Shown piece by piece: positions 23,590-50,310 of a stretch of 52,100 nt of DNA. Position 1 is the stretch's first letter; the number at the start of each line of letters is the position of its first letter. Origin of the DNA: a virus. The notes beneath the pieces are model-generated. The model ran no database searches. It was not told where the DNA came from and saw only the letters and a program-made list of their open reading frames with translations. The translations under genes were made by a program, and so were the position numbers. The stretch spans positions 1 to 52,100 of the IMG/VR virus record IMGVR_UViG_3300020442_002375; one strand, given 5' to 3'.

Positions 23590-24801
23590 ATGGCAGTTAC
23601 ACATAATTTTACTATAGACCAAGGTTCAGATTTTGCTATTCAATTTATCTTTCAAGATGTGAATGGTAATAATGTTGATTTAACACAAGGTGTTGTTGCT
23701 TTTAGATTTCAAGGAAATGATGCAAGTACGCCTCAATCTTTTTTAAGTACAGATGCTGCTCCACCAGGGTTGCCTAATAGATATGTAACAGCTAATAATG
23801 CTGGACAAGTAGATATTGAATTTCCAGCAGAATTAACTAAGGATTTTACATTTACTACTGCTGTTTATGAATTAGATTTTCAGCCCGAACTTACTAATCA
23901 AACTCAAGTGTCCAATACGATTATTTCTAGAGGCACTATTGGACTAATACCAAAGTCATTTAATACTTTTGTTGCTGGAGGATCCACAGAGTCTGAAGAA
24001 GGTTCTACAACAGATAATATTATTAGCGGTACTTCTACTGCTGGTGACCAGTGCGCTTCTTCTTGTCTAATATTAGATTCGGATTCTATTATCTATCGCG
24101 CTAGTGGTATACCTATTTTAGACAACCAAGACAACTATAGTGCAACAGAATTTATTGATAATTTAAGACCAATACAGAAAATAGAAGTTGGCATAAATGG
24201 TTTGAAACATAATAGTCCGCAAGACTTAACCTTCTTACTAGACCCTCCTACCGGTAATACTGTTTTATTATCTAGCAATAGTAAAATAAGTAATTATGAC
24301 GAGACCAATACTGCTAATAAATTTAATTTTGTATTTACAGATAGGGCTCCTGCTACACAATTTATTCAAGATGTACCAAATAATGGTATGTGTCAAATAC
24401 AAGACAAAACAAGTATTACAAAATACGGTAGTCACACACTAGAACCTTCTTTTAATCATTTATATGGCACTGCAAATACTGGTGTTTATAAGTTATATAT
24501 TAATGATAATGATCCTATAGGTACTGGTATTATTGATAATTGGGAACTTATTATTACTTATTCCGGTATCCCAATATCGGCTACTCCTACTCCAACACCT
24601 ACAGTAACCCCTACTGTAACACCAACAATTTCTCTAACACCTTCTGTAACACCAACACTTACCATAACACCAACAAACACTTCAACTCCAACAGCTACTG
24701 TAACGCCAACAATTTCTGTAACTCCAACACTCACACCAACTTCTGGACTAGGTCCAACTCCAACACCTACTCTGACACCAACTACTACAGCTTGCCCATA
24801 A
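23590..24801 (+). CDS. Virion protein: BppU-like domain, P-domain and Thr-Pro repeat tail, 403 aa
   Basis: Residues 1-120 are a BppU-like beta-sandwich (FTIDQGSDFAIQFIFQDVNG), paralogous to the 17421 protein. Residues about 155-325 look like a proprotein-convertase P-domain: IQKIEVGINGLKHNSPQDLT, FLLDPPTGNTVLLSS, and TGVYKLYINDNDPIGTGIID ending WELIITYSG. Residues 331-403 are Thr-Pro repeats (TPTPTVTPTVTPT type), an extended stalk that resembles the repeats in the 47893-50310 protein. No protease domain is attached, so the P-domain is probably a binding or stability module exposed on the virion. AAGGA precedes the start. Confidence 0.72.
   Translation: MAVTHNFTIDQGSDFAIQFIFQDVNGNNVDLTQGVVAFRFQGNDASTPQSFLSTDAAPPGLPNRYVTANNAGQVDIEFPAELTKDFTFTTAVYELDFQPELTNQTQVSNTIISRGTIGLIPKSFNTFVAGGSTESEEGSTTDNIISGTSTAGDQCASSCLILDSDSIIYRASGIPILDNQDNYSATEFIDNLRPIQKIEVGINGLKHNSPQDLTFLLDPPTGNTVLLSSNSKISNYDETNTANKFNFVFTDRAPATQFIQDVPNNGMCQIQDKTSITKYGSHTLEPSFNHLYGTANTGVYKLYINDNDPIGTGIIDNWELIITYSGIPISATPTPTPTVTPTVTPTISLTPSVTPTLTITPTNTSTPTATVTPTISVTPTLTPTSGLGPTPTPTLTPTTTACP
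24589..24795 (+). repeat. Degenerate Thr-Pro coding repeat
   Basis: The DNA is a degenerate tandem repeat of six-base units (ACxCCx type) encoding Thr-Pro-x. A similar, much longer tract lies at 49129-49925. Confidence 0.8.
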
Positions 24802-30835: not shown

Positions 30836-33800
30836 ATGGCTAATGCTTTTAACTTAACTGCTCAAATCAATATCAGAGGACCAGCCAATGTTAATAAGGT
30901 TGTGTCCGGTATTCAAAAACAATTAAATGGTCTTAATGCTAATGTTAATCTTGGTATTAATAGAAATACAACAAAAACTCTTGCAGCTGCAAATAAACAA
31001 TTACAAGCTATTAATGTTAGTTTAAATAAGGTCGCAGGTTCTGCTACTAAAGCAAATGCTTCTATGGCTCAGTTTGCTAAAACCGCAAATAGTTTGGGTG
31101 GTACAGGTAATGTAGCTGCTAAAATTAATAGTGCCAGTAAAGCAACACAGCAACTCGGTAGGAACGCTAAGATTACTTTTAAAGACATTAAACTAGCTCG
31201 TACAGAAATAGAAGAGTTCGGTAGACAGTCTGCTTTGGCCATTAGAAGATTTACTGCTTTTGCTAGTGTTACTAGTGTTATATACGGTGTTAATAATGCT
31301 ATTAATAGAGCCTTGAGTGATTTTGTTAAGTTTGACAGACAATTAGTAAGAATTTCTCAGGTTAGTGGTCAGGCTGTCAGTAATCTAAAAGGTTTACAGG
31401 GTACAATAGGTGATCTTGCAACTACTATTGGTGTTTCTAGTTCTAGTTTGGCAGAAATTTCTGTAACATTGACGCAAGCTGGTTTTAGTGTTAGGGAAGT
31501 ACAAAAGGCTTTGAAAGCTCTTGCTCTTACAGATGTTGCACCTACATTTAATAATCTTAATCAAACTGTTGAAGGCAGTATTGCTTTGCTTAGACAGTTT
31601 AGTATTGGTGCTGGTCAGTTAGAAGCTAGTCTTGGTAGTATCAATGCTGTTGCTGCTCGGTTTGCTGTAGAATCTAGTGATATTATTGCTGCTATACAGC
31701 GTGCCGGTGGTGTGTTTGCTGCTGCTAGTAGAGGTGTTAGCGAAGGCACAGATGCTCTAAATGAATTTATTGCAGTATTTACTGCTGTTAGAGCTACTAC
31801 TCGTGAAGGTGCAGAAACTATTGCTACTGGTTTAAGAACTATTTTCACTAGACTACAAAGAGAAAGCACCATCGAGGCACTAAAAGAATTTGGTGTTAGT
31901 TTACAAGATGCACAAGGTAAGTTTGTTGGTGCATATAAAGCCGTACAATTATTAAGCGAAGGCTTAGGCGGTTTAGATCCTAGGGATATTCGTTTTAGTA
32001 AGATTGTAGAAGAGTTGGGTGGATTTAGACAAATTGGTAAAGTAATTCCTTTGATTGGGCAATTCGCTACAGCACAAAAGGCTTTAACGGTTGCACAACA
32101 AGGTCAAGGTTCTTTGGCAGAAAGTAATGCTAAAGCACAGGCAGCATTAGCTATACAGTTTGCAAGAGTTAGAGAAGAATTCTTAAGACTTGTTCGAGAT
32201 GTTGCTGGTACAGATAGCTTTAAAGGTCTTGTTAGCGGAGCACTAAGTTTAGCCAGTGCTTTAATTAAAGTTGCAGATGCTGTTAAGGGCGTTGTGCCAA
32301 TTATAGGTTTGCTTGCTGCTGCTCGCGGCGCTTCTGCTATAGCACAATTTGGCAAAGGTTTTGGAAGCGGTATTAGAAGAACACAAGGATTTGCTAGTGG
32401 AGGTACAGTTCCTGGTAGTGGTAATACAGATAGTGTTCCAGCAATGCTTACTCCAGGAGAGTTTGTTTTAAGAAAAAGTGCTGTAAGATCTATTGGCACT
32501 GAAAAACTACACAAGATGAATAAGTTCGGGAGTGGAGATAGGGTTAGAGATATTGCAAAAACTCCAGGAGTATCTAAGCAATTACAAAGAAGTATATCAA
32601 CGACCAAAGAACAGCCATTTCGTACAGGTGTAGCCACCAATGCTAATGACAGATTTACTGCTGATATTACTTATGATTCTACTTCTAGACAACAAATCGA
32701 AAATTATATTACTAAAAGATTTGCAAAAAATAAACCAGCCGGTCAAGAATTTCGTTCTAGAATTTTTGGTACAGATAATAGGAAAAAGGGAGATGCTTTT
32801 GAAGAGTACTTAGCGTCTCAAAAAACTAGGGCAGCACGAACAAACACAATATCAGAAAATTATCCAGTAGATTTTCATAGTGGCGCATCTTATGGTGAAG
32901 CAAAAAATGTACAGACTAAATTAAATGAAAATGTTTTTGTTGATAAATTATATAGAGCTAGAGTTTTAGATGGTAGCTATAGAAATAGAAAAGACCAAAG
33001 TGGTTCTTACCCAAGTTCAGAGAGTGGACAAAATATTAACTTGGGTAAGCTTAAAGTATTTTATAGTAAATTTGCTAAGGGCGGAAGTGTACAAGATACA
33101 GTTCCTGCGATGTTAACACCTGGCGAATTTGTAATCAATAAGAAAAGTGCCAAAGCTGTTGGTTATGGTAATCTAAGAAAGATGAATACTAGACCACAAG
33201 GCTTTAATAAAGGTGGTGTTGTTGGATATAATACTGGTGGGTTAGCCGCTATGAAAGGCAGAGGCAGCACTATTGATTTGGGTGGATTTACAGCACAACT
33301 ATCTGGTTTAGAAAGTGCTTTTGCTAGTATGGGAGCTCCTGTAGATCAATTAACTAATGCTGTAATGAAAAATGGTAAAGTTAGTTACTCTTCATACAAA
33401 TCTTTGATAAGACAAGCCAAGGCAAATATTGATCTTGCAAGATCTAGTGCTAAAACTAGCGAAGACTTGAAAAAAGTTGCAGCTATGGAAAAACAACTGA
33501 TGGCAATCAGGAGAAAGGGTGCTGCTCAAGCTAAGGGGGGTGGAGGTGCTGCATTCGCTAAAGCACTTGATCCTCAAAATTTATTTTACTTTACTGCTGC
33601 TGCTGGCGGAGCGGCTGCTGGTTTGGAAGCTTTTGATACTTCAGTGACAAGCGGTGCTGCTACATTTATTAATACTATCTTAGGTATGGTATTAGCTGCT
33701 TCGACTGCTGTTAGCACAATAACAGCTTTAGCGAGTACTACATTAGGATTAAAAGTAGCTTCAATAGCTGCTGCTATGGGATTAACAGGCGTTGGCATTG

Positions 33801-36800
33801 CTTTAGGTCCTTTGACAATAGCTGTTGGTGCTGTTGTTGGTGGGTTAGCTCTTTTGTTTGCTGGATTTACTGCATATTCTGCTGCGATACAAAAATCTAT
33901 ACAGTTAGAAGAAGAACGTACTCAAGGAGCTCTTGATAAAGCGTCAGACAGGGCAGCTAAGGCGTTAGAAAAATTATCTAAAGAAGCCAGTGCTGTTAAT
34001 TTTGAAGAAGCTTTGAGAGCTGCAAGTGATCAAGCTGGTGCTACTGATGATAGGGCCGCTGTAGTAAACAGAAGATTTAGGACTGAACAGCAAAGTGGTG
34101 ATTTTGGTGCTGGTGGTGGTGCCAGATATCTTAGAGAGGTGGGTGCTTATCTTACTCTTGGTTATGTAGATAGTGTGGCAGACGCTACAAGAAATAATCA
34201 AAAAAGAGTAGAAGATTCGGCTAAACAATTAGCTGATTTATACGGTAAGCAATTAGCGACACAATCCTCTATAGCGACAGCTAGATTTAATGAAGGATTT
34301 ACTTTGCAAGATTTAAGCGAAGCCTCGACTCGTAGAGCTGGTGGAGGATCATTAACGGAAGAAGAAAGAATTAATGCTGATATTTTTGATAAGTTATTAA
34401 AAGCAAGATTACAGGCCGATGAATCGTATATTGCATCTCAATTAAGAGCAGAAGAACAAGGTAGAAGTCTAACCACCGCTGAGAAACAGGTTCATGAAGA
34501 TAGAGTTCGAAGAGAAATGATGGCTGGCGATAGCGCTATTAGTCTATCTTCTAAAACAGCACAGGCAGCTAGAGAACAAGAAAGATTAGCACAATTATCT
34601 ACTAGATTAGGCACTGCTTTTGAAAAATTATCTAATGCTGTTGGTCAGGCTATTAATAAAGTAGAGTATGAGGCCCAAGCTAGACAAAATGCTATTAGTA
34701 GTATGATTGCTAGTGGCACAGGAGAAGCAGCTGCTCCAGAATTACCTAATCTTACAGCTAATGTTTTAGAAAACCCTAGTGCTTATAATGCTGCTGAAAG
34801 AGAATCTACTAGACGTAATTTAGCGACAAGTCTTACTCCTGCGCTTGGAGCTGAGCAAGCACAATCTGTTTCTGCATTAGCAGCTTTCGATCCAAATATT
34901 ATATCTAGAGCAATCGTAGATGCTACAGATGGCGCTACTGCTGGCGCAGATATTTCTGCGTTGTCGGATGATATAGGTTCAAATATTGCTGTTGAACTTG
35001 ATAAATTAAGAACACAAGGTGTTTCAGAGGATGTGATAAATAGCTTACAAGAACAAGGTCAAATTACTGCTAACGAAATAGCTCGTAGACTGGAAGGTGT
35101 TACAGATCCTACTGAAAGAAGAAATATTATTGAAGAGGAAACTAAGAAATTTAATGAGTCATTAGCTAAGGCTAGAGATGGAGCAGTAAAGCTTGCTACA
35201 GAATTTACTAGAGTAAGAACAGATGCTCTTAATACATTTGGTAAAAATTTACAAGAAGTTAATAAATTACAAAGACAAGCATTACAATTTGAACAGTCTG
35301 CTATTAATGCAAGAAGATCTTCTGCAGACAGTCTTGGTCAAGCTTTAACGGGTTTTGGACCTAGTGTATCCGAACTTTCTCGAAGACAAAGAGCAGATAC
35401 CGCAAGATTAACCGGAGGACCAACAGATCCTGCTGGCATAGCTGATAATTTTAGGAAATTACAAGCAGAAGCTGCTTTCTTAAGAGATGAGCTTAAAAAA
35501 GCCGGTGAAGCACAAGACACAACGAAAGCTAAAGAATTACAAGAACGTTTAGCAGGCGTTAACTATCAATTAAATAACAATAGGGCTGCGTTAGAAAGGT
35601 TGGCAGAATCTGCTAATGCTGCTGCTGAAGCTGCTCTTAATGAAGTCAGTGAAAGAAAAAGATTACAAGATGCCAATAGATCATTTGCTGAAACTTTATT
35701 AACTTCTGGTCCAGATGAACTTAAGGCTCTTGATGAATCTTTAGTCAGGGCTAATCAAAGAGTTAATGGGTTTATTCCACAGGCTGGTGCTAGCGAAAGA
35801 AAGAAATTCTTTGAACTACTCAAATCAACAGGTAGTGTGCGTCAGGCTCAACAAGGCGTAGCTGCTGATATGAGGAAGAGAGACCTTCAAACTTTGCAGC
35901 AAACTAGAGATGTTAGAATCTTTAGGATGATGAATCAAGGCATGAGTAGAGAAGAAGCAACTAATAGGGCTAATCAAGATGAAGCTAGAATTTTAGCTCA
36001 GATGGGTGGAGAAGCTGGTCTTGGGGCACTAGGTAGAAGCATTGTTGGACAAGCAGTTGCGACAACTGCAGATCCTCTCAATGATCCTGTTATGAAAGCT
36101 TTGACAGATCAATATACAGCCGCCGCTGCTGTACAAGCACAGGCTAATCAAGAATTATCAAACTTGACTAGAGAATTAGCAGATGGAGCTTTAAAAGCTT
36201 CAATCGAACAACTAAGTACTACAATATCAGACTTAAACAAAGATATAGTAACGGCTATTGGTAATTCTGGTGCTGATCCTAATGTTGATGGAATAGACCC
36301 TACCAGAAAAAGCAGGGGTGGTTTAATTTATGCTTCTAATGGACAGTATATTAACTTTAAACCTAAAGGTACAGATACAGTACCCGCAATGCTAACTCCT
36401 GGTGAATTTGTTGTTAATCGTCAGGCTACCCAAAAGAATATGGGATTATTACAATCTATTAATGGTGGTAAAGTTAATACATATTCTAAGGGAGGCAAAG
36501 TTGCTTATCTTAGAGGTGGTGGTTTTGCACAAAGAGATACTAATAAAGACGGTGTGTTAACAGTAGGTGTTGAAGATACACAAGGTTTAAATGACACAAA
36601 TAATGATGGAATAATTACTTTTGCTGAATTTGTTAATGCTATGTCTTTATCAAATCCTCAAAATGCTGCGGTTGCCTCTAATAATCTTAATGCTTATCAA
36701 CAGATGTCTAGTTTAGGAACAGGTTCACAACTAGGGTCTTCTGGCATGGAGTTATTAGGACTAGACGGTGGTCCTGAACAAAATTTTCTTGCTAATCTGG

Positions 36801-39800
36801 CTGCACAAATGGTTGGTGGGCCTTTACTTGCTGGAGCTTTAAATATGCCACTTGGTGTTCAACCACTTTTTGATTTTCAAGAGTTTGGAGGAGTAGGCGC
36901 TTTTAAGGAAGCTCCATTATTTAAGAAAAAAGCAGAACAAAGAAGAGTATTTAATTTACAAAGAAGAAGATTTTTAGAACAACAAAAATTAGCAGATGAC
37001 AGAAATAAGGGTATAGCTGCAAGAAAAGATGAGAATCGAGCCAAAGCTATAGTTAGAGCAAATCCAGGGATGGATATAGAGGCTGCTAGACAACAGGTTA
37101 GGGACAAAAATGATATGTTGGTACCAGATCCTGATGGGGCTCTAGATGGATTAGGTAATGTACAACAAGTTAGATTTGGAGATTTGGCACCAAGACAACA
37201 ACGTATGCACGAAAGAAATGTAGCAAAAGAAAAAGAATTAGCAGAACAAGAAAAGGAAAATGCAAGACTAAAAGCAGAACAAGAAGCGGCAGCAAGGCGA
37301 GTAGAACAAGAAAATCAAAGAAAAGCAGACAAAGCCAAAGAAGAACAAAGACGTAGAGAAGCTAAAGAAAGACGCAAAGTCATTGAAGAAGGTGGAACAG
37401 GTACTTTTCGAGATCTATATACTCCTGATGGTCAAGGAGGATTTAGGCCACTAACAGAAGAAGAATATAGAAAGAAAACTATTGAAGCAGGTGATGAGAA
37501 CATTAGCTTCAATGAAGAAAAAGTTATTAGAGACAAGGGTGGTCGACAAATAGGTACAGGTGAAAAGTTTGAAGTCTATGATGCTCAAGGTAATGCTTTG
37601 GCGACAGGAGACAGTGGAGACTTAACATTTAGAGTAGCGTTTAATAGAAAAATAAAAGATAGAGAACATGAAGAAAGAAAACAAAGAGAGTATGATCCAA
37701 CAGGTGTGAACAGAATTGATCTATATGATAAAGATGGTAAAAAAATAGATTTTGGTTCTGGCGAGCCCTTAACAGACGTAAGAACACAGTCTGTCGCTCA
37801 AAGCTTGTCTGGTGGCAGGTTCGGCCCAAAAATAAAAACATATGATAAACGAGGGAATGAAGTTGATATCAGAGATGATTACAATGCTAGTCAAGCTATC
37901 GAAATACAACGAAAAAAAGAAGAAAGAGAAAGAAATCAAGAAAGACGAGAACTGACTGATTATGAAAAACTTCAGTCAGATCTTATACCTAGTAATTATA
38001 AAGATGCACATATAATAGACAGTTTTGGTAGAGATGAATCTGCATATTTTAATAGCATGCATGTTAGTGAAGAGGATAAAAATAAGAGATTTAAAGAACT
38101 ACAAGCGATGCAACAAAACCGCTTAGATCTGATAGATACTTTTTTGGATAGACCTGGCGAAAGAATGGATGAAGTTCAAGATGCTTTCAATAAAGATCCT
38201 AAATTTAAAAGTATTTTAGAGAACGAACTAGCCAGAAGAATGAAAGAAGCAGGACAAGGGTCGCAAACAGATATTAGTGATCAATTTGGAGTAGAAAGAG
38301 GACAGATTTTTGATGACTATATTGCTAATAGAGAGGCTAACAACGCATACCAACTAGCATTGTACAACGATTTAGTGAAAAATCGCTTTAAAGATATGGA
38401 AGGTCGTGATTTCAATCCATTTGATGAATCTACTTATATTACACCTAGTATGACAGGTGATAGTGCTCTCCTGGATAGTCCTGTTATTAGACAAGCCTTA
38501 GGTGCTGATAAAGAGATAAGTCCAGAACTAGCAGCTTCTAATGCTGAAAAAGCAGCTATTGCTCAGATGGCAAGAGATGAGAAAGAATACAATGACCTCC
38601 GAGAAAAATTTGAACAGATAAAAGCGGAACAAGGGTCTCAATTTACTGGGGCGTTATTGAGAGATATGGAAAGAATGGGAACATCAACAGCATTGTCATT
38701 TCTTGATCTTTTTGATAATTTAAGACATGAAGACAATAAGATAAGGGACACAGAAGAATATATCAAGTTGGAAAACAGACTATATGATATAGACAATTAC
38801 AAAACTCCAGAATTTTCACCGCAAGATGAAGCCAGGATGAGGGAATTGCAACAGAAAGGAATAGGTAACGTTACTGATCTTCCAGGAGTAATGGGTCCTG
38901 TCGCTCCTGATATGATAGATAGCCCTGATCCTATTAAATACTTTGCTGGTGTTTATGGTCAACAGCTATATAATTTAGGAGGAAACGCTACTAATGCACT
39001 ATCAAATGCTCTGATGGATAATGCCGTTTTTGGATCAGTTGATTTTGAAGAACGGGCTAGACAACAAAAAATGTTTGAAGAAACTATGGGTGGAGATCCT
39101 TTGTTGATGAGTCCAGAGGAACGAATTAGAAGACAACAAAAATTTGCTGATGATATTACTGCGCTCCAGAGCAGAATAGCAGAACCGTTTGCTTATGCGG
39201 CATATGCTGGAGGTGGTGCGATGGATATTGTTGCACCTCTTCTAGAAGGAGAAGGCTTAGGAATGAGCGATCCTAAGTTCCGCGATGACTTTTATGATGC
39301 AACTATGGGAGCACTTGCTGCTGCACAAGATGGAAAAGAAAGAAATATCTTAGGTGAAGATCTTGTAAATTTAGGAAAAGAACTTGAAAGAGTTAATGCT
39401 GAAGCGAATAAGGGTAATTATGGACCTAATTCGAATGCGGTAGCTGATGCTATAATGCTTATGACAGATGCGATACCTGTTTCAAAAGTAGGCGACTCAC
39501 TCAAAAGACTTAATCCTAATATGGGGACTCTTCCTTCTCCTGGTAAACTTATTCCTGATTTAGGAATAATATCAGTAGATCCTAAGGGTATTAGGGCAGA
39601 AATACTTGCTGGGCGGCGAGCAAGATATGAAGAAGCAGTCCAAGCAATCCTTGAAGAGAGAAGACTTGCTAACGAAAGTTTAGACTACTTAAATTCTGAT
39701 CAATTTTTGACTGATCTTGTTGAACAGGCTGGTAATACAACCGCTATAAGACCAGATGGTACCCCTGCAGGATTTGGTATGCCTGGACAACCAGGTGTGA

Positions 39801-41305
39801 ATTTGGATTCGTATCCTTCAATTCCTAGTGTTAAACCTAAACCAGGAACAGCAGCGAATCCACGACAACTCTCTCCTCAAGACAAAGCGGCTGTTGATGA
39901 TTACTTACGGTCAACTAGAACTCCTGTTGTTGGTAACCAAGGCATGCCGGACGATCTGTTAAATGATTTAGGTGCTGACTTTCAAAATATACAAAATAAC
40001 ATACCTACTGGACCTGATATTCCTCTACCAGGAGTTAAGAGTATTGATGACCTACCATCGGCAACAACAGCTACTACCAAAGATATTAGAGCTGCAAGTA
40101 TTAATATGGACGATCCTGAAGCAGTCGAACAATTTCTTGCTTATCATAAAAATTATTTAGATACTATGTTGCAAGGAGCAAATGATCCTCTTTATAATTT
40201 AGATAATATAAGTAAAAAAGATCTTGTTAATATTATTGCAAATGCTCAAGATAGATCATCTAGTGTTCAAAGTACTTTTATTAAAGACAGAATAGCTGAT
40301 ATAAACATGTCTAGAAATGCAAGTGGGACAACTGCTGCTGTTCCGGATGCTATAAGATCACAAAGACCAAGGGGAGATCTGCAGATCGGGCAAGGTCAGG
40401 GTCCTGCAGATGATACTCTTCAGCGTATTTCCAGAGGGGAAGGCCACATGGATGGTGGGAAGTTCGTTCCAGGCAAGCCTCCAGTTGATGCTGGTCCCGC
40501 AGCACCTTTACAGTCTAGTTTAACCTCAGAAGATAGAGGTGCCCAAGCGAAACAAATTCTCAAGAACACCACTGCAGCTTCTAGAACAGAAGCAGAAACT
40601 GCTATCGTTAATCAAGCTATAAAAGATCCAGATATACTAAAGACTATGCGCAAAGGAGGAATGGTATATGCTAGTAATGGTATGCTAGTTCCATATCGAC
40701 CACAAGGAACAGATACAGTTCCAGCTATGTTGACTCCTGGAGAATTTGTGGTCAATAGAAATGCTACTAGTCAATATCTACCAGTTTTAAGGGCTATTAA
40801 TAGTGGGTATAATACTCACGGTCAAATGGTTAACCATCTTGCTCGTGGAGGAGTAGCAGGATCGCCTCAATATCTCCAAAATGGTGGATTAACAGGATTA
40901 GCAGGTAGCATTATGAATAATGGTGTATCAGTTAATAGTCAAATTGGAGGATTAGAAGAATTAAAAATCGTTGTAAATCAGCTTAATGAAGCTATATCTA
41001 GTGGTACAGAAAATATGACAAGCGTCGCTACACAAATCTCAAATACGTCTCAATCTCTAGCTTCTGGAGCTCAATCTTTGAACGAAGCTGGTACAAATAT
41101 ACCGACGCAGATTACACAACAACAAAGACTTACTGTGGACCACGCTGGTATTCCACAAAACATAGGAGCAGAATTTGGAAGAGCAGCAGACTATGCTATT
41201 GGTCAAGCAGACTCTAGATCAGCACAACAATTAAATGATCTTAATACTGCAAATGAAGGTTCACTTGGTTTACCACCTCCTAATAACAACTCTACTATAC
41301 GTTAA
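30836..41305 (+). CDS. Tail tape measure protein, 3489 aa
   Basis: Residues about 130-470 carry the TP901-type tape-measure core (DFVKFDRQLVRISQVSGQ, FAVESSDIIAAIQRAGGVFA, GAETIATGLRTIFTRLQRES, GGFRQIGKVIPLIGQFATAQ). A 120-residue hydrophobic segment around 910-1020 probably inserts in the host membrane. Four copies of DTVPAMLTPGEFV stand at residues 532, 754, 1847 and 3293. A nuclease-like segment lies at 608-746, an EF-hand pair at 1901-1931, and charged coiled-coil sequence at 1990-2500. At about 0.15 nm per residue the full length predicts a tail of roughly half a micrometre, unless the C-terminus is cleaved or does not span. The AGGA site is ten bases before the ATG. Confidence 0.93.
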   Translation: MANAFNLTAQINIRGPANVNKVVSGIQKQLNGLNANVNLGINRNTTKTLAAANKQLQAINVSLNKVAGSATKANASMAQFAKTANSLGGTGNVAAKINSASKATQQLGRNAKITFKDIKLARTEIEEFGRQSALAIRRFTAFASVTSVIYGVNNAINRALSDFVKFDRQLVRISQVSGQAVSNLKGLQGTIGDLATTIGVSSSSLAEISVTLTQAGFSVREVQKALKALALTDVAPTFNNLNQTVEGSIALLRQFSIGAGQLEASLGSINAVAARFAVESSDIIAAIQRAGGVFAAASRGVSEGTDALNEFIAVFTAVRATTREGAETIATGLRTIFTRLQRESTIEALKEFGVSLQDAQGKFVGAYKAVQLLSEGLGGLDPRDIRFSKIVEELGGFRQIGKVIPLIGQFATAQKALTVAQQGQGSLAESNAKAQAALAIQFARVREEFLRLVRDVAGTDSFKGLVSGALSLASALIKVADAVKGVVPIIGLLAAARGASAIAQFGKGFGSGIRRTQGFASGGTVPGSGNTDSVPAMLTPGEFVLRKSAVRSIGTEKLHKMNKFGSGDRVRDIAKTPGVSKQLQRSISTTKEQPFRTGVATNANDRFTADITYDSTSRQQIENYITKRFAKNKPAGQEFRSRIFGTDNRKKGDAFEEYLASQKTRAARTNTISENYPVDFHSGASYGEAKNVQTKLNENVFVDKLYRARVLDGSYRNRKDQSGSYPSSESGQNINLGKLKVFYSKFAKGGSVQDTVPAMLTPGEFVINKKSAKAVGYGNLRKMNTRPQGFNKGGVVGYNTGGLAAMKGRGSTIDLGGFTAQLSGLESAFASMGAPVDQLTNAVMKNGKVSYSSYKSLIRQAKANIDLARSSAKTSEDLKKVAAMEKQLMAIRRKGAAQAKGGGGAAFAKALDPQNLFYFTAAAGGAAAGLEAFDTSVTSGAATFINTILGMVLAASTAVSTITALASTTLGLKVASIAAAMGLTGVGIALGPLTIAVGAVVGGLALLFAGFTAYSAAIQKSIQLEEERTQGALDKASDRAAKALEKLSKEASAVNFEEALRAASDQAGATDDRAAVVNRRFRTEQQSGDFGAGGGARYLREVGAYLTLGYVDSVADATRNNQKRVEDSAKQLADLYGKQLATQSSIATARFNEGFTLQDLSEASTRRAGGGSLTEEERINADIFDKLLKARLQADESYIASQLRAEEQGRSLTTAEKQVHEDRVRREMMAGDSAISLSSKTAQAAREQERLAQLSTRLGTAFEKLSNAVGQAINKVEYEAQARQNAISSMIASGTGEAAAPELPNLTANVLENPSAYNAAERESTRRNLATSLTPALGAEQAQSVSALAAFDPNIISRAIVDATDGATAGADISALSDDIGSNIAVELDKLRTQGVSEDVINSLQEQGQITANEIARRLEGVTDPTERRNIIEEETKKFNESLAKARDGAVKLATEFTRVRTDALNTFGKNLQEVNKLQRQALQFEQSAINARRSSADSLGQALTGFGPSVSELSRRQRADTARLTGGPTDPAGIADNFRKLQAEAAFLRDELKKAGEAQDTTKAKELQERLAGVNYQLNNNRAALERLAESANAAAEAALNEVSERKRLQDANRSFAETLLTSGPDELKALDESLVRANQRVNGFIPQAGASERKKFFELLKSTGSVRQAQQGVAADMRKRDLQTLQQTRDVRIFRMMNQGMSREEATNRANQDEARILAQMGGEAGLGALGRSIVGQAVATTADPLNDPVMKALTDQYTAAAAVQAQANQELSNLTRELADGALKASIEQLSTTISDLNKDIVTAIGNSGADPNVDGIDPTRKSRGGLIYASNGQYINFKPKGTDTVPAMLTPGEFVVNRQATQKNMGLLQSINGGKVNTYSKGGKVAYLRGGGFAQRDTNKDGVLTVGVEDTQGLNDTNNDGIITFAEFVNAMSLSNPQNAAVASNNLNAYQQMSSLGTGSQLGSSGMELLGLDGGPEQNFLANLAAQMVGGPLLAGALNMPLGVQPLFDFQEFGGVGAFKEAPLFKKKAEQRRVFNLQRRRFLEQQKLADDRNKGIAARKDENRAKAIVRANPGMDIEAARQQVRDKNDMLVPDPDGALDGLGNVQQVRFGDLAPRQQRMHERNVAKEKELAEQEKENARLKAEQEAAARRVEQENQRKADKAKEEQRRREAKERRKVIEEGGTGTFRDLYTPDGQGGFRPLTEEEYRKKTIEAGDENISFNEEKVIRDKGGRQIGTGEKFEVYDAQGNALATGDSGDLTFRVAFNRKIKDREHEERKQREYDPTGVNRIDLYDKDGKKIDFGSGEPLTDVRTQSVAQSLSGGRFGPKIKTYDKRGNEVDIRDDYNASQAIEIQRKKEERERNQERRELTDYEKLQSDLIPSNYKDAHIIDSFGRDESAYFNSMHVSEEDKNKRFKELQAMQQNRLDLIDTFLDRPGERMDEVQDAFNKDPKFKSILENELARRMKEAGQGSQTDISDQFGVERGQIFDDYIANREANNAYQLALYNDLVKNRFKDMEGRDFNPFDESTYITPSMTGDSALLDSPVIRQALGADKEISPELAASNAEKAAIAQMARDEKEYNDLREKFEQIKAEQGSQFTGALLRDMERMGTSTALSFLDLFDNLRHEDNKIRDTEEYIKLENRLYDIDNYKTPEFSPQDEARMRELQQKGIGNVTDLPGVMGPVAPDMIDSPDPIKYFAGVYGQQLYNLGGNATNALSNALMDNAVFGSVDFEERARQQKMFEETMGGDPLLMSPEERIRRQQKFADDITALQSRIAEPFAYAAYAGGGAMDIVAPLLEGEGLGMSDPKFRDDFYDATMGALAAAQDGKERNILGEDLVNLGKELERVNAEANKGNYGPNSNAVADAIMLMTDAIPVSKVGDSLKRLNPNMGTLPSPGKLIPDLGIISVDPKGIRAEILAGRRARYEEAVQAILEERRLANESLDYLNSDQFLTDLVEQAGNTTAIRPDGTPAGFGMPGQPGVNLDSYPSIPSVKPKPGTAANPRQLSPQDKAAVDDYLRSTRTPVVGNQGMPDDLLNDLGADFQNIQNNIPTGPDIPLPGVKSIDDLPSATTATTKDIRAASINMDDPEAVEQFLAYHKNYLDTMLQGANDPLYNLDNISKKDLVNIIANAQDRSSSVQSTFIKDRIADINMSRNASGTTAAVPDAIRSQRPRGDLQIGQGQGPADDTLQRISRGEGHMDGGKFVPGKPPVDAGPAAPLQSSLTSEDRGAQAKQILKNTTAASRTEAETAIVNQAIKDPDILKTMRKGGMVYASNGMLVPYRPQGTDTVPAMLTPGEFVVNRNATSQYLPVLRAINSGYNTHGQMVNHLARGGVAGSPQYLQNGGLTGLAGSIMNNGVSVNSQIGGLEELKIVVNQLNEAISSGTENMTSVATQISNTSQSLASGAQSLNEAGTNIPTQITQQQRLTVDHAGIPQNIGAEFGRAADYAIGQADSRSAQQLNDLNTANEGSLGLPPPNNNSTIR

Positions 41306-41316
41306 GGCCAAAAGAC

Positions 41317-44300
41317 ATGAATAATGTACATATTTTTGAAAATGTAGGATTAAAATGTAAGACAGAAAATAATAAAATTATTCTATTAAAAACCTTGGTC
41401 GGATATAATAATTTTCAAGACTCACAAGTAGGCTCTTCTGTACCATATTTAATTAGGAATGTTGCCCAAAACAAATATGAAGTAGGTGTTGGTGAATTAG
41501 GTAAAGATAAGGATTTTTATATTGTTAGAGAAAAGGTAATATCTTCTTCTAATAATGGTGATCCTGTAGAACTTATAGGGGTTGATAGTGAATTCTATAT
41601 CTTTGCTAATGAATATAATTTTAATACAGCCTTTAATAATGTTATACTTAAAGAAGACAGTTTTGATGTAGATAATGTTAGAGCTATATATATAGTAGAT
41701 ACTTCCAAAGGTTCTATTTCTGCCACACTACCACCCGCCCAAGATAATAAATCATTAGTAGTAGATTTTAAAACAGTTAATAATGCTAGTGGTCAATTAA
41801 TAATTAAATGTTCTGAAAATTATACAGTTCATACCTTGCCCGGTAAGGACAAACATATCACATTAGTCTGTACTGGTTCAAAATGGGTTCCACTACAAGA
41901 TAGTCAAAAACAACAATCTACTTTTAGCACATTCTCAAATCCATCGTTTTCTGCACAAGCTGATCCTGCTGGAGCTACTGGCTCATTACAATACAAAGTT
42001 GATGCTACAACCTTTGGTGACACTAAAGCATTTTTTGGTCCAAATGATACAATACTATTAGGTGGTACAGGGATAGTTGATAATGCTCATATTGTATTGC
42101 CTACTACTGGCGTTGGTGCTAATAATGATGTGATATTTAATAAGCAACATGCTAGTGGCGATTTTACTGTTCACGGTAGTGCTAGTGGTATAGGCTTGTC
42201 ATTTAGTCATAGTGGAGGTCTAGGACTTAATGTTCCTACAGGCTTTGCTCCTCCTTCTAGTGGAGATGTAATATTGTACGGTAGTGGTGATGCTAGAAAA
42301 AACCTATTCTTTTCTTATGATGGTAGATTAGGCATAAATATTCCTTCTGGTAGTAGACCACAAACTGTTGCTCATTTTGTAAATATTTCTGATTGTTCAG
42401 AGACTTTAAGATTAGAAAATAAGGCGGTTTGTCATCCAGCAAATCTTACATTATTACATAACCCACCTCTTGCTACTATTCCTGCTAATAGTACTATAGC
42501 TACTGTTACTATGTCCTCTAAAAATAGTGCTAGTAATGAAGTAGATTATGTACAATTATTGGGTAGGGTTTTAGATTTTACTAATGGTCAAACTAAGGGA
42601 GAATTTGGTTTAGTTGTAAATAGTGGTAATGCTGCCATTCAAACTGTAAAAACTAACGCTAGTCAAACATCTTTAAATCATGGCACTTCTAGACTATCTG
42701 TCTCTGATAGTTCTGCTGGTATTGCTAGTCCAGAAATTACATTTTCAGGCACAAGTATAAATTTTGTTGATTTAGCTTCAGGTCAATCTGGAGTTGTTAA
42801 TTTTGGCACAATTAATACCAATCTCATTACACCTAATACATTAAAACTAGACACATTAAGCACAAACAGTTTATTAACAATTAATTCTGATAAAGAAGTT
42901 GTAGCAGCAAGCACAGGAAATGCAATAGCTATTGCAAATGCTCCTTCTGGCAGAATACTTTCAACAGAAGCCAATGGTATTATCAGTACAGATATTGGTC
43001 TTGATGATTATTTTAGAACCAATAAAGATGTTGTCTATAATAGCTATCCACATAGACAAGCAGAAGGCTGTTTACAACAAATTATATTTGTTGAAGATGT
43101 ATTAGAGAGAGAATTTTCTGTAGGAGATCAAATATCTATAACAGATTCTGATGGTAATGTTACGTATAATTTTGTTACCGGCTTAACTCTGAATAATGGC
43201 ATAATTACTGTTATGAATTGTGCTAATACAATTAGCGCAGCTACTGTCGCTGGGATATCTGTACAATCAATCAGTAAAGGTTTTACTCTTACATTAGAAA
43301 AATTTGTAGATCCTACTGTTACAGCATTAAATGATTCTACATTCATAGTTTTAAGCACACAACCTGGACAAAGCACCGTGTTTAATGGAGATAAAGCTCA
43401 AGTGGGCTTTACTGTTTATGCAGATTCTCTAGTTCCAGCATTAGATATTAGACCTTCAGGAGCTAATCCTGCTCGCGTATTTACTGGTCAGTATTATGGC
43501 TACTCAACAACATCAAATAGTGCTCCTTTAAAAGTTTTAGTAGATGCTTCTGGTAGAGGTACTAGTAATTCAGAATATAACACTGCTAATTTTGATAATG
43601 CTACTATTCCTAGATGGTCTGGTTTCGTAAGTGATGTAGGTCTTAATGGACGACCTAGTGCTTTTGGTACTTTTGATCAACAGGGTAATGTTGCAGAATG
43701 GATAGCAGTTAATACTGAACAACATAACACAAGCGACTCTAGGTATGTAGCAGGTGGTAATTTTGCTAGTACTTTAGAACAAATGAAAGCTCTTGAGGCT
43801 TTAAGTTCTATGTCGGGTGCGTCTGGTGTTGGTATTAGACTTGCTAGTGTGTTTAATAAACAAGATAGTGATTATGTTAGTGGTGTGCTGGGCTTAGACT
43901 TTGCAGATATTACTAATCCAGTAAACATATCATCTGCTACAGGATTACAACTATATAATAGTAGTACAGACACGTTTTCTGATTTAAGCTTTTCTAATCT
44001 TGGTACAGTCACAAGACAATACAGAATAGGCAAAAATGAAATTACTAATAGTCAATATGTCAAATTCTTAAATGCTATAGCTTCTGGAAATGCAGGAGAT
44101 GTATTAAATCTATTTGATTCTAGAATGGAAACAAGTATTGCTGGAGGTATTGAAAAAACTAGTTCTGTAATATGTGCTCCAAGAAACATGTTACATACAT
44201 ATAGTGTCAAAACAAACTATGATAATAAACCAGTTAACTTTGTTAATTATTTAAGTGCTGTTAGATTTGCTAATTGGGTTAATAATGGCGCTCCAACAGG

Positions 44301-47085
44301 GTTAACAGTTAGTCCTGATGTTATAACAGAATCTGGAGCATATAATATTGCATTACAGGGTGGCGGTATTTATGCCATTAGTAAAGATGCAAATGCAGAA
44401 TATTATCTTCCAGATATAAATGATTGGTATAAAGCAGCATACTTCCAACCAGGAACAGCAGTTGCTCAGTCTGGAACATCAATTCTTCTTAATGCTAATG
44501 ACGCTGGAATACTTTCTACAAAAAATGATGTAGAAGCAACTGTTACTATCGGTGGTGATGTAGTACTATCTAGCGGAGACTTAAATGTTTCAGGCGTAGT
44601 TGCTGCAAGAGATTTGCAAATTATTGGTGCTTCTGGAGAAAGTGTTATAGAAACTGCTAATGATACAGAAATAAACATTCTAGGCTTACAACATGGACAA
44701 AATTCTTTAAGACTTGTAAATACAGAAAATGGTAAATTACAAATTGGTCCTAATCCTAGTTTAACATTAAGTGGTGCTGGTGAATTAGACGGTAGCTATT
44801 TTACGGGTTTTTCAAAAGCAAAAACAACTATAGCGTCTACTGGCGAAATTAAAATTTTATCAGAACTTCCTGTTAAGTTTAGTGGTATTAGCACACAAAG
44901 TCTTCTAGTAAATCGATTATCTTTCCAAGACGATGAAGGTAATGCAAGAGACTTTTTCAATGGTCCTGACGGTGGCTTTGTTTACAAAACAGGACCATCC
45001 AATTCTGAGGCTTCTGATCAATTAAGATTTGAAGGAGGAGAAATATATTATACTGGAGTAGAGAGTAGTGGTCTGAGTCCTTTATATATAGATAATCTTA
45101 ATAGAGTAAGAACATATAATAATTTAAAGTATGAATCTGATTTTGTTGAATTAAGTGGTATGTTTAATCCGACAGAATTACAGGTTGGTCCTGATAATCC
45201 TTCCTTGTCTGGAGCTTTCTTGGTTCATCAAGGTACTGGTCCTATGAAGTATAAGAGCAATGACTTCTTATCTGCAGAAGGATTAACCTATCAAAGATAC
45301 GCAAAAAGACTAGTTCATGTAGATGTATTTACTAAAAAAGTAAGCTTTGTATCTCCACCGGAAGAACCTAAAATACCTGATATTGCTGCTGGCACCCCTA
45401 CCTTAGAGGAGTTGGCTATAGAATATTCATTTGGTGATACTGTAGCTATTATGCATACGGGCGATAATGAAATTGAATATGTAAAATTGGCCGCACAAGC
45501 TAAAGGTCCATTTGATGGTCCTGATTTTCTTTATATCGGAGATACTCCGTTATTTAGTGAAGGCGAGGGAGTAGAAGGATCTGATACCAAGAGTTCGTTC
45601 TTCTGTCCAGGTGTTAAGGCTAATGCGGGCGATGGCGGTGAAGACCTAGCAAGTTTTACTGGTATTATGTATTCAATAACCAGGTCTTCTACTCTTAAAA
45701 ATGGTTTGGGATACGGATTATTTCCTAAAGATCCTCCTGCTATTAGTGGATTTACTTGTGACAGCGAATCTTATGAGCCTATTGCAAACGAAGGCGCTGA
45801 GTTTACATTTAGACCAAGTTCCCAAAATGTTATTAGTAGTAGACCATTAATTAGTACTATGTTTAATAATGTTGGAGAAAACATTGACTTTGCCATATAT
45901 GGACGTACTAAATTCCAATACAATAGATATAACCCAAGTATACATGGAGCAGATTCTGAAAAGGGTGGTCGTCCTTCTGGTTTAATTCCAAGTTTTATGG
46001 TTGATGCTAATATAGGAAATGCTGCCAGTGGAGAGCTTCCTTCTGGGGTTTTCTTTACAGATTGGGTTGATGAAGAGAAAACTATTCCAACAGGATTTAA
46101 TTTAGATCAACGAGGTAAAGTTCTTGTTAATACAGAAACTCCTTTTGTTATGAGTTCGCTAAGCAAGGCTATTTCTGCTGAACCTAGTGGATTCCCTACT
46201 TTAGATCTTGTTGCTGATTTAACAGTAAATGGATATACTTATTCTAGAGGATTAATAACTGATCATATTTATCTATCTGGTATAGATCCTAATACTTATA
46301 TTCCTGGTGCCGTATTGACTACAAATGTTAATGGTAGGATTATTTCTGTTAAACCAGATCTTCCTCCTAGTGTTCCTGGTCCACCAACTTTAATTAGTGG
46401 TTCTGTTGGTAATACTAGTGTTGATTTGGATTGGTTTGCTCCAGTAGAAAATGGTGGTAAGCCAATATTAAATTATATAGTAGAATATAGCACTAATAAT
46501 GGTGCTACATGGACTGCTACTGTTGATGTTGTCGATCCTAATCCTGGTGAAACTGTTACAGGATTAACTAATGGCGAAAATTATGTCTTTAGGGTTAGAG
46601 CAGTAAATGAAGTTGGACAGGGACAATGGTCAGAACCTAGTGCTCAATTTACCCCTAGTTCTAATTTCCCAGGAGCTGTTAGAGAACTTACTTTAACCAG
46701 AAGAGATGTAACTGATCCTGCTACTGGCAATGTAGTATCTAATACTATAGAAGCAACTTGGGCTGTGCCTGTAGAAGCTGGAGCTAGTGTTATCGCACAA
46801 TATATAGTTAGGTACAAACCATTTGATGGCTTATCTTGGATTACCAAAGACCCAATTACTGCAACATCAGCTAGTTCATATACTTTTGATTTAACAGGAT
46901 TGCTTGCTGGTCCTACATATTTGGTTAAAGTTACAGCACAAAATAGTTATGGAGAAGGACAACCTAGTATTCAGCGATCGGTTGGCACTGATCCTCCTCC
47001 TACAGGGCCAGAACCTCCTCCAAACCCTAATGACTTTGGAACCATAGAATTTTCAGGATCTTGTTCTACTCAAACAACAACTTAA
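41317..47085 (+). CDS. Large tail-tip/fibre protein with FGE-like halves and fibronectin III domains, 1922 aa
   Basis: The first 700 residues are fibre-like beta sequence. Residues about 723-845 match the C-terminal half of formylglycine-generating-enzyme/C-type-lectin domains (FGTFDQQGNVAEW, later GVGIRLASVF), and 901-1045 match the N-terminal half (YRIGKNEITNSQYVKFLNAI, PVNFVNYLSAVRFANWVNNG, YLPDINDWYKAAYF), so the order is reversed. Residues 1688-1880 contain two fibronectin type III domains, the first with PPTLISGSVGNTSVDLDW and LTNGENYVFRVRAVNEVGQG. The end is Pro-rich with two late Cys. It follows the tape measure, so it is probably a tail-tip, baseplate or receptor-binding protein. No sulfatase-modifying activity is expected. 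Confidence 0.8.
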   Translation: MNNVHIFENVGLKCKTENNKIILLKTLVGYNNFQDSQVGSSVPYLIRNVAQNKYEVGVGELGKDKDFYIVREKVISSSNNGDPVELIGVDSEFYIFANEYNFNTAFNNVILKEDSFDVDNVRAIYIVDTSKGSISATLPPAQDNKSLVVDFKTVNNASGQLIIKCSENYTVHTLPGKDKHITLVCTGSKWVPLQDSQKQQSTFSTFSNPSFSAQADPAGATGSLQYKVDATTFGDTKAFFGPNDTILLGGTGIVDNAHIVLPTTGVGANNDVIFNKQHASGDFTVHGSASGIGLSFSHSGGLGLNVPTGFAPPSSGDVILYGSGDARKNLFFSYDGRLGINIPSGSRPQTVAHFVNISDCSETLRLENKAVCHPANLTLLHNPPLATIPANSTIATVTMSSKNSASNEVDYVQLLGRVLDFTNGQTKGEFGLVVNSGNAAIQTVKTNASQTSLNHGTSRLSVSDSSAGIASPEITFSGTSINFVDLASGQSGVVNFGTINTNLITPNTLKLDTLSTNSLLTINSDKEVVAASTGNAIAIANAPSGRILSTEANGIISTDIGLDDYFRTNKDVVYNSYPHRQAEGCLQQIIFVEDVLEREFSVGDQISITDSDGNVTYNFVTGLTLNNGIITVMNCANTISAATVAGISVQSISKGFTLTLEKFVDPTVTALNDSTFIVLSTQPGQSTVFNGDKAQVGFTVYADSLVPALDIRPSGANPARVFTGQYYGYSTTSNSAPLKVLVDASGRGTSNSEYNTANFDNATIPRWSGFVSDVGLNGRPSAFGTFDQQGNVAEWIAVNTEQHNTSDSRYVAGGNFASTLEQMKALEALSSMSGASGVGIRLASVFNKQDSDYVSGVLGLDFADITNPVNISSATGLQLYNSSTDTFSDLSFSNLGTVTRQYRIGKNEITNSQYVKFLNAIASGNAGDVLNLFDSRMETSIAGGIEKTSSVICAPRNMLHTYSVKTNYDNKPVNFVNYLSAVRFANWVNNGAPTGLTVSPDVITESGAYNIALQGGGIYAISKDANAEYYLPDINDWYKAAYFQPGTAVAQSGTSILLNANDAGILSTKNDVEATVTIGGDVVLSSGDLNVSGVVAARDLQIIGASGESVIETANDTEINILGLQHGQNSLRLVNTENGKLQIGPNPSLTLSGAGELDGSYFTGFSKAKTTIASTGEIKILSELPVKFSGISTQSLLVNRLSFQDDEGNARDFFNGPDGGFVYKTGPSNSEASDQLRFEGGEIYYTGVESSGLSPLYIDNLNRVRTYNNLKYESDFVELSGMFNPTELQVGPDNPSLSGAFLVHQGTGPMKYKSNDFLSAEGLTYQRYAKRLVHVDVFTKKVSFVSPPEEPKIPDIAAGTPTLEELAIEYSFGDTVAIMHTGDNEIEYVKLAAQAKGPFDGPDFLYIGDTPLFSEGEGVEGSDTKSSFFCPGVKANAGDGGEDLASFTGIMYSITRSSTLKNGLGYGLFPKDPPAISGFTCDSESYEPIANEGAEFTFRPSSQNVISSRPLISTMFNNVGENIDFAIYGRTKFQYNRYNPSIHGADSEKGGRPSGLIPSFMVDANIGNAASGELPSGVFFTDWVDEEKTIPTGFNLDQRGKVLVNTETPFVMSSLSKAISAEPSGFPTLDLVADLTVNGYTYSRGLITDHIYLSGIDPNTYIPGAVLTTNVNGRIISVKPDLPPSVPGPPTLISGSVGNTSVDLDWFAPVENGGKPILNYIVEYSTNNGATWTATVDVVDPNPGETVTGLTNGENYVFRVRAVNEVGQGQWSEPSAQFTPSSNFPGAVRELTLTRRDVTDPATGNVVSNTIEATWAVPVEAGASVIAQYIVRYKPFDGLSWITKDPITATSASSYTFDLTGLLAGPTYLVKVTAQNSYGEGQPSIQRSVGTDPPPTGPEPPPNPNDFGTIEFSGSCSTQTTT

Positions 47086-47892: not shown

Positions 47893-50310
47893 ATGATACC
47901 TGAAAATAATTTTATATTATCAGAATGTGAATGTGGCACTCTAATATCTTTTCCTGAAATAGATTTACAATCTACTAATCCTCCTTTTTCTTTATCTGGC
48001 GGTAATAATCTTATTATAGAATTTAATGTTGTTGACACTTATCCTAAAGACGCCACTGTTACTGTTGTACCAAGTGCTTATAATATACAAAAACCTAATA
48101 AGTTCACACCTCAAACAAGTGTTAAGATACTATCAGAATATAATTTCGGAACTCACGCTTTATTGCAGATGAATTGTAAAGATAGATATGGTAGAATTTT
48201 ATATAGTGCTTATCAAAAAATTGTTTGTAGTCCAGCAGGAAACAGGATTTGCGAAGAACCAACTAAATCACGTAAACAAGACCCTAATATAATTTTAGAA
48301 AAACGTAATGGCTGGAAATACAATTATAATGATCATACAATAGCATTATTTTTATATAATGAGAACATATATTCAAATGATATTGTTGCTAAATTACAAC
48401 GTAAAAATACTAACGTATTACCTTTAAGACTATTTTGTGAAAATGGAACTTTTCCAGACCATGTTAGCGACCAACCAGATAGCGCTGTTGAAAATAGTTG
48501 TGCTACTAGTGTTAATAATAGGAAAGTAGCACCAATTCCTGCTATTAGTATGTTAGTAGAAAAATATGCAGATACTACTGTTAAGGTAGGCGAAATAATT
48601 TATAATCCTAAGGTTTATGTTAAATCAGATATTATTACAGTAGAGAAAGACAATACTTCCGCAACAGGGGTTTTTAATGGTTTTCATATTGAATTATCAA
48701 CTGATAAACGATTACAGCATTTATTACAAACAGATATTGATGCTAATGCTTTTGTATTAAATGAAGGAGATAGCCAATTTACTATTAATGGTCGTACATT
48801 TGATAAAAACCAATATTTGTGTTATTCTGTTGGTACATATGAATTAGATGTTCCTGAAGATCATCCTATAGCTTTTCTTAATAAAGGATTAGAAGAATAT
48901 ATATCTTATAGTGGTAATCCATCTAAAGAAAAAACTAGAACCGTTAATGTGGTTGAAGATCCTAATAATGATTATATACCAACCCATCTTCATGGCGATT
49001 ATAAATTTTATTATGGTAATGTAACTTTGACTGTTACTTCTGGCATAAATAATATGCCTATTAGTTACTATAGTTATTATAATGGATTTTTAGGAGGTAA
49101 GGATAGATTGGTTTTTGCAGAAACCTATGCTCCAACACCTACACCTACTGTTACATCTACTCCATCTGCAACTCCAACACTTACCCCTACTATTTCTCTT
49201 ACTCCTTCTATTACTCCTACAACTACTACAACTCCTACAACCACACCGACTACAACACCTACACAAACTCCTACTGCTACTGTAACCCCAACGGTCACTC
49301 CTACTATTTCTGTTACTCCTAGCATAACACCTTCTAATACTCCAACCGTTAGTGTGACAACTACTAATACTCCTACTGTTAGTGTTACGCCTACCAATAC
49401 TCCTACTACTACAGCAACATTGACACCTACCGTAACACCAACAATTAGTGTAACGCCTTCTGTAACTCCAACACTTACTCCTACAATTTCAGTTAGTCCA
49501 ACAGTAACTCCTACGATTTCTGTAACTCCATCTATTACGCCTTCAATAACACCGACTATTTCTGTTACTCCTACTATAAGTGTTACTCCTACTTTGACAC
49601 CAACAAATACTACAACTCCTACTGTAACACCTAGCAACAGTCCTACTCCTAGTATCACACCTAGCAACACACCGACTGCTAGTGTAACACCAACATATAC
49701 TCCTACTGTTTCAGTTAGTCCAACCAATACTCCTTCCGCTACTCCTACGAATACTGTAACTCCTAGCGTTACACCAACCCATACTCCTACTGCTAGCGTA
49801 ACACCTAGCAACACACCTACCGCTAGTGTAACACCAACACGCACTCCCACACCAACTGTAACACCTACACCTACCCTAACTCCTATACCAACAATTACTC
49901 CAACTCCAACTTTGACACCTACTTCTCAAACAATAAATTCTCAGTGTTTAGATGGTAGTATACCTGTTGCAGTAGTGTCTGCTTCTGATGGTAGTAATGT
50001 ATATAATTTTGATTTCATGTCTAGTGAAACCAATACTTTCAAAGCAACAGCAGGTACGTATGTGTTTACAAATGTACCAGCAGCTCATCCTATAGCTTTT
50101 CACACTAATGGTAAGCCTATGAGCTATACCGGACAATCTTTACAGGGTCAAAAAATTGGTTTAGACGGTAATACATATGATTATTGGTATGGAACTGTAA
50201 CATTGGTTATTACTGGAGATTTTGGTACGACTTCTTATGAGTGTTGGTATCACGGCTATATGGGAGGAGAAAACAATTTGACCTATGATAGTACTTGTAC
50301 AGCCCCCTAA
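47893..50310 (+). CDS. Virion protein with two cupredoxin-like domains flanking a Thr-Pro stalk, 805 aa
   Basis: The N-terminal 250 residues contain Ig-like sequence starting with CECG. Residues about 295-410 form a cupredoxin-like domain (DHPIAFLNKG ... SYYSYYNGFLGG), and 680-800 form a second (AAHPIAFHTNGKPMSYTG ... SYECWYHGYMGG). In the second, Cys784, His787 and Met790 with an upstream His match a type-1 copper site. In the first, the same positions are Ser, Asn and Leu. Between them lie about 260 residues of Thr-Pro repeats. It is probably an exposed fibre or tail-tip protein. Copper binding is inferred from motifs only. Confidence 0.75.
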   Translation: MIPENNFILSECECGTLISFPEIDLQSTNPPFSLSGGNNLIIEFNVVDTYPKDATVTVVPSAYNIQKPNKFTPQTSVKILSEYNFGTHALLQMNCKDRYGRILYSAYQKIVCSPAGNRICEEPTKSRKQDPNIILEKRNGWKYNYNDHTIALFLYNENIYSNDIVAKLQRKNTNVLPLRLFCENGTFPDHVSDQPDSAVENSCATSVNNRKVAPIPAISMLVEKYADTTVKVGEIIYNPKVYVKSDIITVEKDNTSATGVFNGFHIELSTDKRLQHLLQTDIDANAFVLNEGDSQFTINGRTFDKNQYLCYSVGTYELDVPEDHPIAFLNKGLEEYISYSGNPSKEKTRTVNVVEDPNNDYIPTHLHGDYKFYYGNVTLTVTSGINNMPISYYSYYNGFLGGKDRLVFAETYAPTPTPTVTSTPSATPTLTPTISLTPSITPTTTTTPTTTPTTTPTQTPTATVTPTVTPTISVTPSITPSNTPTVSVTTTNTPTVSVTPTNTPTTTATLTPTVTPTISVTPSVTPTLTPTISVSPTVTPTISVTPSITPSITPTISVTPTISVTPTLTPTNTTTPTVTPSNSPTPSITPSNTPTASVTPTYTPTVSVSPTNTPSATPTNTVTPSVTPTHTPTASVTPSNTPTASVTPTRTPTPTVTPTPTLTPIPTITPTPTLTPTSQTINSQCLDGSIPVAVVSASDGSNVYNFDFMSSETNTFKATAGTYVFTNVPAAHPIAFHTNGKPMSYTGQSLQGQKIGLDGNTYDYWYGTVTLVITGDFGTTSYECWYHGYMGGENNLTYDSTCTAP
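49129..49925 (+). repeat. Long degenerate Thr-Pro coding repeat
   Basis: Nearly 800 bases of degenerate units encode TPTxTPTxSVTP-type sequence between the two cupredoxin-like domains. Codons vary among units. The antisense strand is open by chance, a by-product of the repeat. Confidence 0.88.

Follow-up and report, generated by a model that had tools for sequence, protein, structure and literature searches.

The tail protein and its gene neighbourhood

The window, i.e., the whole 52,100-nt stretch of viral DNA analysed (positions 1 to 52,100 of IMG/VR record IMGVR_UViG_3300020442_002375), encodes a tail protein of 1922 aa (41317..47085, plus strand, as are the tape-measure gene and the parts of the protein given below). 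Besides an FGE/C-type-lectin-like domain that is putatively permuted, it has fibronectin type III domains at its C-terminus. The better of two fibronectin type III stretches covers residues 1689-1776 (46381..46644; Pfam PF00041, E 4.1e-23), and such domains were also found at the C-terminus of the relative L060. Immediately 5′ of the ORF lies the gene of a 3489-aa tape-measure protein (30836..41305; Pfam PhageMin_Tail, E 1.2e-21). The motif TPGEFV marks this tape-measure protein and was used to recognise the upstream ORF in relatives; a tape-measure-like ORF with the motif was located directly upstream in all 28 window-clade homologues examined. Proteins of the window clade are ~1150-1970 aa long and have the start of their permuted domain around residue 706-774, counted along the reading frame.

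The domain of the window protein opens with a hinge segment (residues 725-756, QYYGYSTTSNSAP..., 43489..43584), which was recognised by a hinge HMM built from bead-type relatives (independent E 9e-6). It is followed by the canonical C-terminal half (residues 767-846, 43615..43854), identified by profile and by its GNVAEW, GG, and GIR motifs. In the doubled-profile alignment described below, residues 847-892 (43855..43992) form the junction at which the canonical C-terminus runs into the canonical N-terminus. The canonical N-terminal half (residues 893-1047, 43993..44457) comes last, and was identified by profile and by the motifs YRIGKNEITNSQY, NKPVNFV, and LPDINDWYKAAYF.

Two further proteins of the window have recognisable features. 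An 805-aa protein (47893-50310) has a long P/T-rich repeat region flanked by two similar end segments, and a 403-aa protein (23590-24801) contains a proprotein convertase P-domain (E 3e-7).

Reversed order of the two half-domains

The whole 1922-aa protein matched the Pfam FGE-sulfatase family PF03781 (E 9.9e-11) with 42.2 bits, passing the gathering cut-off of 23.3 bits, and did so in two stretches. Positions 43609-43845 of the window correspond to profile positions 159-254, and positions 44005-44445 to profile positions 33-124, so the window protein departs from the canonical PF03781 order, in which the N-half precedes the C-half. Because profile 159-254 is matched ahead of 33-124, most of the FGE domain is there, with its order rotated. 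The motifs tell the same story, with FGTFDQQGNVAEW at residues 783-795 and GVGIRLASVF at 837-846, followed by YRIGKNEITNSQYVKFL at 902-918 and LPDINDWYKAAYF at 1031-1043. The sequence-only reading, which had placed the C-half motifs (723-845) ahead of the N-half motifs (901-1045), is thus borne out by both motif positions and profile order.

We further aligned the protein with a doubled FGE profile, i.e., the profile written twice in tandem (500 positions). Residues 767-1047 gave one contiguous alignment to positions 173-250 and then 1-150, crossing the joint from position 173 to 400 of 500. This alignment scored 111 bits, versus 21 and 94 bits for the two pieces scored separately. Canonical proteins aligned in normal order in the same test. 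Because the doubled profile aligns across the joint in one piece, the complementary pair of half-matches is not a product of chance. An assembly artefact was ruled out, since an independent contig, 92% identical across the domain, has the identical half order, and many relatives have it too.

Relatives in viral contigs and bacteria

Scanning viral contigs with motifs and profiles recovered many giant phage proteins with reversed half order. A half-by-half survey of viral ORFs, whose counts include overlapping copies of identical contigs, found 95 ORFs with C-N order, 15 with C-N-C-N, three with three permuted domains in series, and 25 with one canonical domain. Relatives in reversed order, which the sequence-only reading had proposed to look for, therefore exist in number: viral contigs hold 143 permuted domains, 86 of them distinct once duplicates are removed. 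The 25 canonical ORFs (~300 aa) look like PEP-CTERM-like genes, judging by their length and by the sequences shown. Across the whole family, a median of ~9 extra residues connects the old termini, and the junction of the window clade is longer than this. Bead-type C-N units are commonly bounded on either side by P/T-rich linkers.

Several records showed additional FGE-type arrangements. Two IMG/VR contigs, possibly bacterial DNA, have tandem runs of adjacent canonical FGE genes of the PEP-CTERM-like kind, three in L023 and five in L029. The 152-kb viral contig of L094 and L100 (record G020) gave 20 FGE half-domain matches. In the L021 ORF (4051-13239), a permuted domain at aa 844-1384 seems to enclose an FGE domain of canonical order (aa 1014-1293), its own N-half being broken between profile positions 61 and 72.

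Among bacterial loci, the best 80 of at least 411 relatives ranked by permuted alignment had a canonical or tandem canonical order, except L135. This locus, a contig of 3.8 kb binned as alphaproteobacterial, codes for a protein homologous to that of the phage and looks like a phage contig. A full permuted bacterial match should have topped the ranking among the relatives, as L135 did. We also considered a bacterial origin of the permuted form, since nine bacterial ORFs cross the doubled-profile junction, and rejected it: on inspection these ORFs were canonical or tandem canonical, again with the exception of L135. The permuted domain is thus common to many uncultured phages, while the retrieved bacterial relatives, L135 excepted, keep the ordinary order. 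DNA and protein searches of cultured phages yielded nothing beyond one weak partial match. The PHROG family phrog_18508, named as a kinase, matches the permuted domain with its halves swapped in order, and is presumably an FGE-fold family under a misleading name.

Predicted structure and fold matches

AlphaFold2 predicted the domain of a bead-type relative as a single chain with high confidence (pLDDT 94.3, pTM 0.94; input alignment of 80 sequences, all permuted), which points to a monomer fold for this relative. The monomer prediction of the window's own domain, based on 24 sequences, was weaker: most of both halves was modelled above 70, but overall pLDDT was only 68.3 (pTM 0.75), and the first 64 residues as well as the ends were disordered.

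The permuted-family profile matched the solved FGE folds 5aoh, SUMF2, TvpA, GldK/PorK, FGE, and EgtB. Among the alignments printed, which included 5aoh and TvpA, the halves were in swapped order; for 5aoh, query 191-273 aligned to chain positions 80-163 and query 37-101 to 199-263. In a Foldseek search, the bead-type model retrieved TvpA and PvdO at the top and more FGE, CalU17, and EgtB entries lower. Each match covered ~40-115 columns, and none reached E 0.001; such partial matches are expected of a permuted chain, as Foldseek aligns in chain order. With the window's own model, Foldseek did not find the FGE fold. Proteins with the C-type lectin fold have their first strand paired with their last (PMC5006420), and joining the old termini is therefore expected to be easy.

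Probable circular permutation within one chain

We consider it very likely that residues ~725-1047 form one circularly permuted, FGE-type C-type-lectin-fold domain within a single chain of the tail protein, most likely a ligand-binding one. The features of natural circular permutants were found: a contiguous match to the duplicated profile, joined old termini, and new termini that lie in one region. The P/T-rich linkers on both sides of many units, the ~9-residue joint, and the confident AlphaFold2 monomer of the bead-type relative indicate that the permuted unit is autonomous, and its autonomy together with that monomer prediction argues for an intrachain permutation. The canonical N- and C-termini, on the neighbouring strands beta1 and beta5, would be joined via the linker, and the chain would instead be opened in the loop that leads from the EWYKAA helix to the GxYDxxGNVxEW strand, creating the new termini. 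Folding would then take place within a single chain, with the domain as an in-line part of a tail-fibre or tail-tip protein, and the new termini may serve to orient the binding face on the fibre.

The sequence-only reading had offered a swap of half-domains between subunits as an alternative to permutation. The doubled profile, the short joint, the P/T-flanked units, and the relative's monomer model favour permutation, and the swap was not supported. In such a swap, the C-half of one chain would complete the N-half of its neighbour in a fibre trimer. Tail fibres are usually trimers, which would suit this arrangement, as would the window-clade junction, which exceeds that of the bead type in length. 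Segment swapping is also known in the C-type-lectin-like superfamily from the collagen IV NC1 domain (PMC3779223). However, the typical joining linker leaves little room for crossing between subunits, the confident prediction for the relative is a closed monomer, and the many relatives that are separate beads between P/T-rich linkers imply no close trimer, so that a swap seems improbable. More improbable still is a tandem-array remnant, in which a first canonical domain lost its N-half and a second its C-half, leaving two halves that are now unrelated modules. Canonical tandem arrays do occur in bacteria and are a plausible route to permutation. However, the two remaining halves are near-perfect complements, with no overlap and in many proteins, and the relative is predicted to fold as a single domain. 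A tandem array is likely the history of the permuted domain rather than its present state.

Cut points and origin of the permutation

In canonical order, the hinge segment, which is related to GYWTYATQSDTAPTCVSANSSGDG, sits between both halves. By the hinge HMM, it follows the N-half in 63 bead-type domains, and precedes the C-half in 14 window-clade domains including that of the window, the hinge of the remaining window-clade members being too diverged to score. No relative has a hinge on both sides of one domain. In the L022 ORF (9735-10814), profile positions 132-250 come before 3-129, with a P/T-rich linker directly after. The family thus has three cut points, those of the bead type, the window type, and L022.

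Several origins of the permutation were considered because a quick tree placed four long-branch bacterial rows within the permuted clade; a single-clade tree fits better, and the tree constrained to one permuted clade was not rejected (p-AU 0.968). Together with the hinge placement and the L022 cut, this suggests a single permutation origin with later shifts of the cut, two independent permutations being a less likely alternative. Out-of-phase excision from a tandem array would be the simplest route for such shifts.

A cysteine at the new N-terminus and one at the new C-terminus occur together in 23 of the 80 aligned bead domains, singly in one domain each, and in neither position in 55. On the tree, each of the two cysteines needs 14 changes. 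They change in step in about five of five supported independent comparisons, although five pairs cannot reach p 0.05. This pair is probably a disulfide staple that closes the cut in the bead type; the window clade has no terminal cysteine pair. We tentatively propose a virus-restricted permuted lineage in which the cut moved at least twice (after the hinge in the bead type, before it in the window type, and inside the N-half in L022), probably by tandem-array excision, and in which the bead termini were restapled by a disulfide. If true, permutation would be an evolutionary means of pointing the receptor-binding face of a tail fibre in a new direction with the fold unchanged.

Putative function

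The mean entropy of the permuted domain was 3.1 bits in the variable loops versus 1.1 bits in the core, and its most variable stretches are the counterparts of the variable region of TvpA and Mtd. The binding face would consist of the hypervariable loops that run from the RGG to the GFR strand. The FGE active cysteine pair is located between these same strands, and no conserved cysteine was found there in the permuted family (alignment positions 67-92, 80 sequences). Because the FGE cysteines are missing, enzymatic activity is improbable; a role in formylglycine generation or sulfoxide synthesis, which only the Pfam family name suggests, has next to no probability.

Diversification by a DGR (diversity-generating retroelement), as in Mtd, would agree with the shared fold subclass and with the position of the variable loops, which fall where Mtd and TvpA have their DGR variable region (PMC5006420). 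However, none of 28 virus records, up to 244 kb long and possibly incomplete, had a reverse transcriptase (PF00078) match, and no template/variable repeat pair was recognised among the repeats of the window. The DGR reading is highly unlikely and was rejected on the 28 records. The conserved scaffold with variable loops, the missing cysteine pair, and the absence of a reverse transcriptase from these records suggest that the permuted domain most likely gives the tail fibre a module for binding receptors or glycans, one that varies by ordinary evolution.

Comparison with known systems

Natural circular permutations as such are already known; our search of the open literature yielded no permuted domain of the FGE type or of the C-type lectin fold. 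The window domain shares its motifs and both halves with FGE-sulfatase/SUMF1 proteins (PF03781), including the secreted paralogues of Planctomycetota and Verrucomicrobiota, but differs in its rotated halves, its lack of FGE-type cysteines, and its setting in a phage tail protein. Ordinary domain annotation misses the permuted domain, giving two half hits only, and similar tail adhesins may be overlooked for this reason. With its many members and several cut points, the family provides a natural series for how permutation arises and moves.

Collagen IV NC1 is likewise a rearranged member of the C-type-lectin-like superfamily (PMC3779223), but it swaps segments between subdomains, whereas the permuted phage domain rotates the chain order. 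The suggested link to Mtd, a phage receptor-binding protein (PMC5006420), holds for the fold: TvpA (2y3c), which shares the fold subclass with Mtd, is among the matches of the family profile, and the variable loops correspond in place. Unlike the window domain, TvpA has its halves in canonical order when aligned. In both TvpA and Mtd, the variable region is C-terminal and is diversified by a retroelement; no such element was found in the records searched here. As a separate observation, the window also encodes a 544-aa protein (18086-19720) that matches Pfam Mtd_N, the N-terminal domain of the major tropism determinant (E 3e-14).
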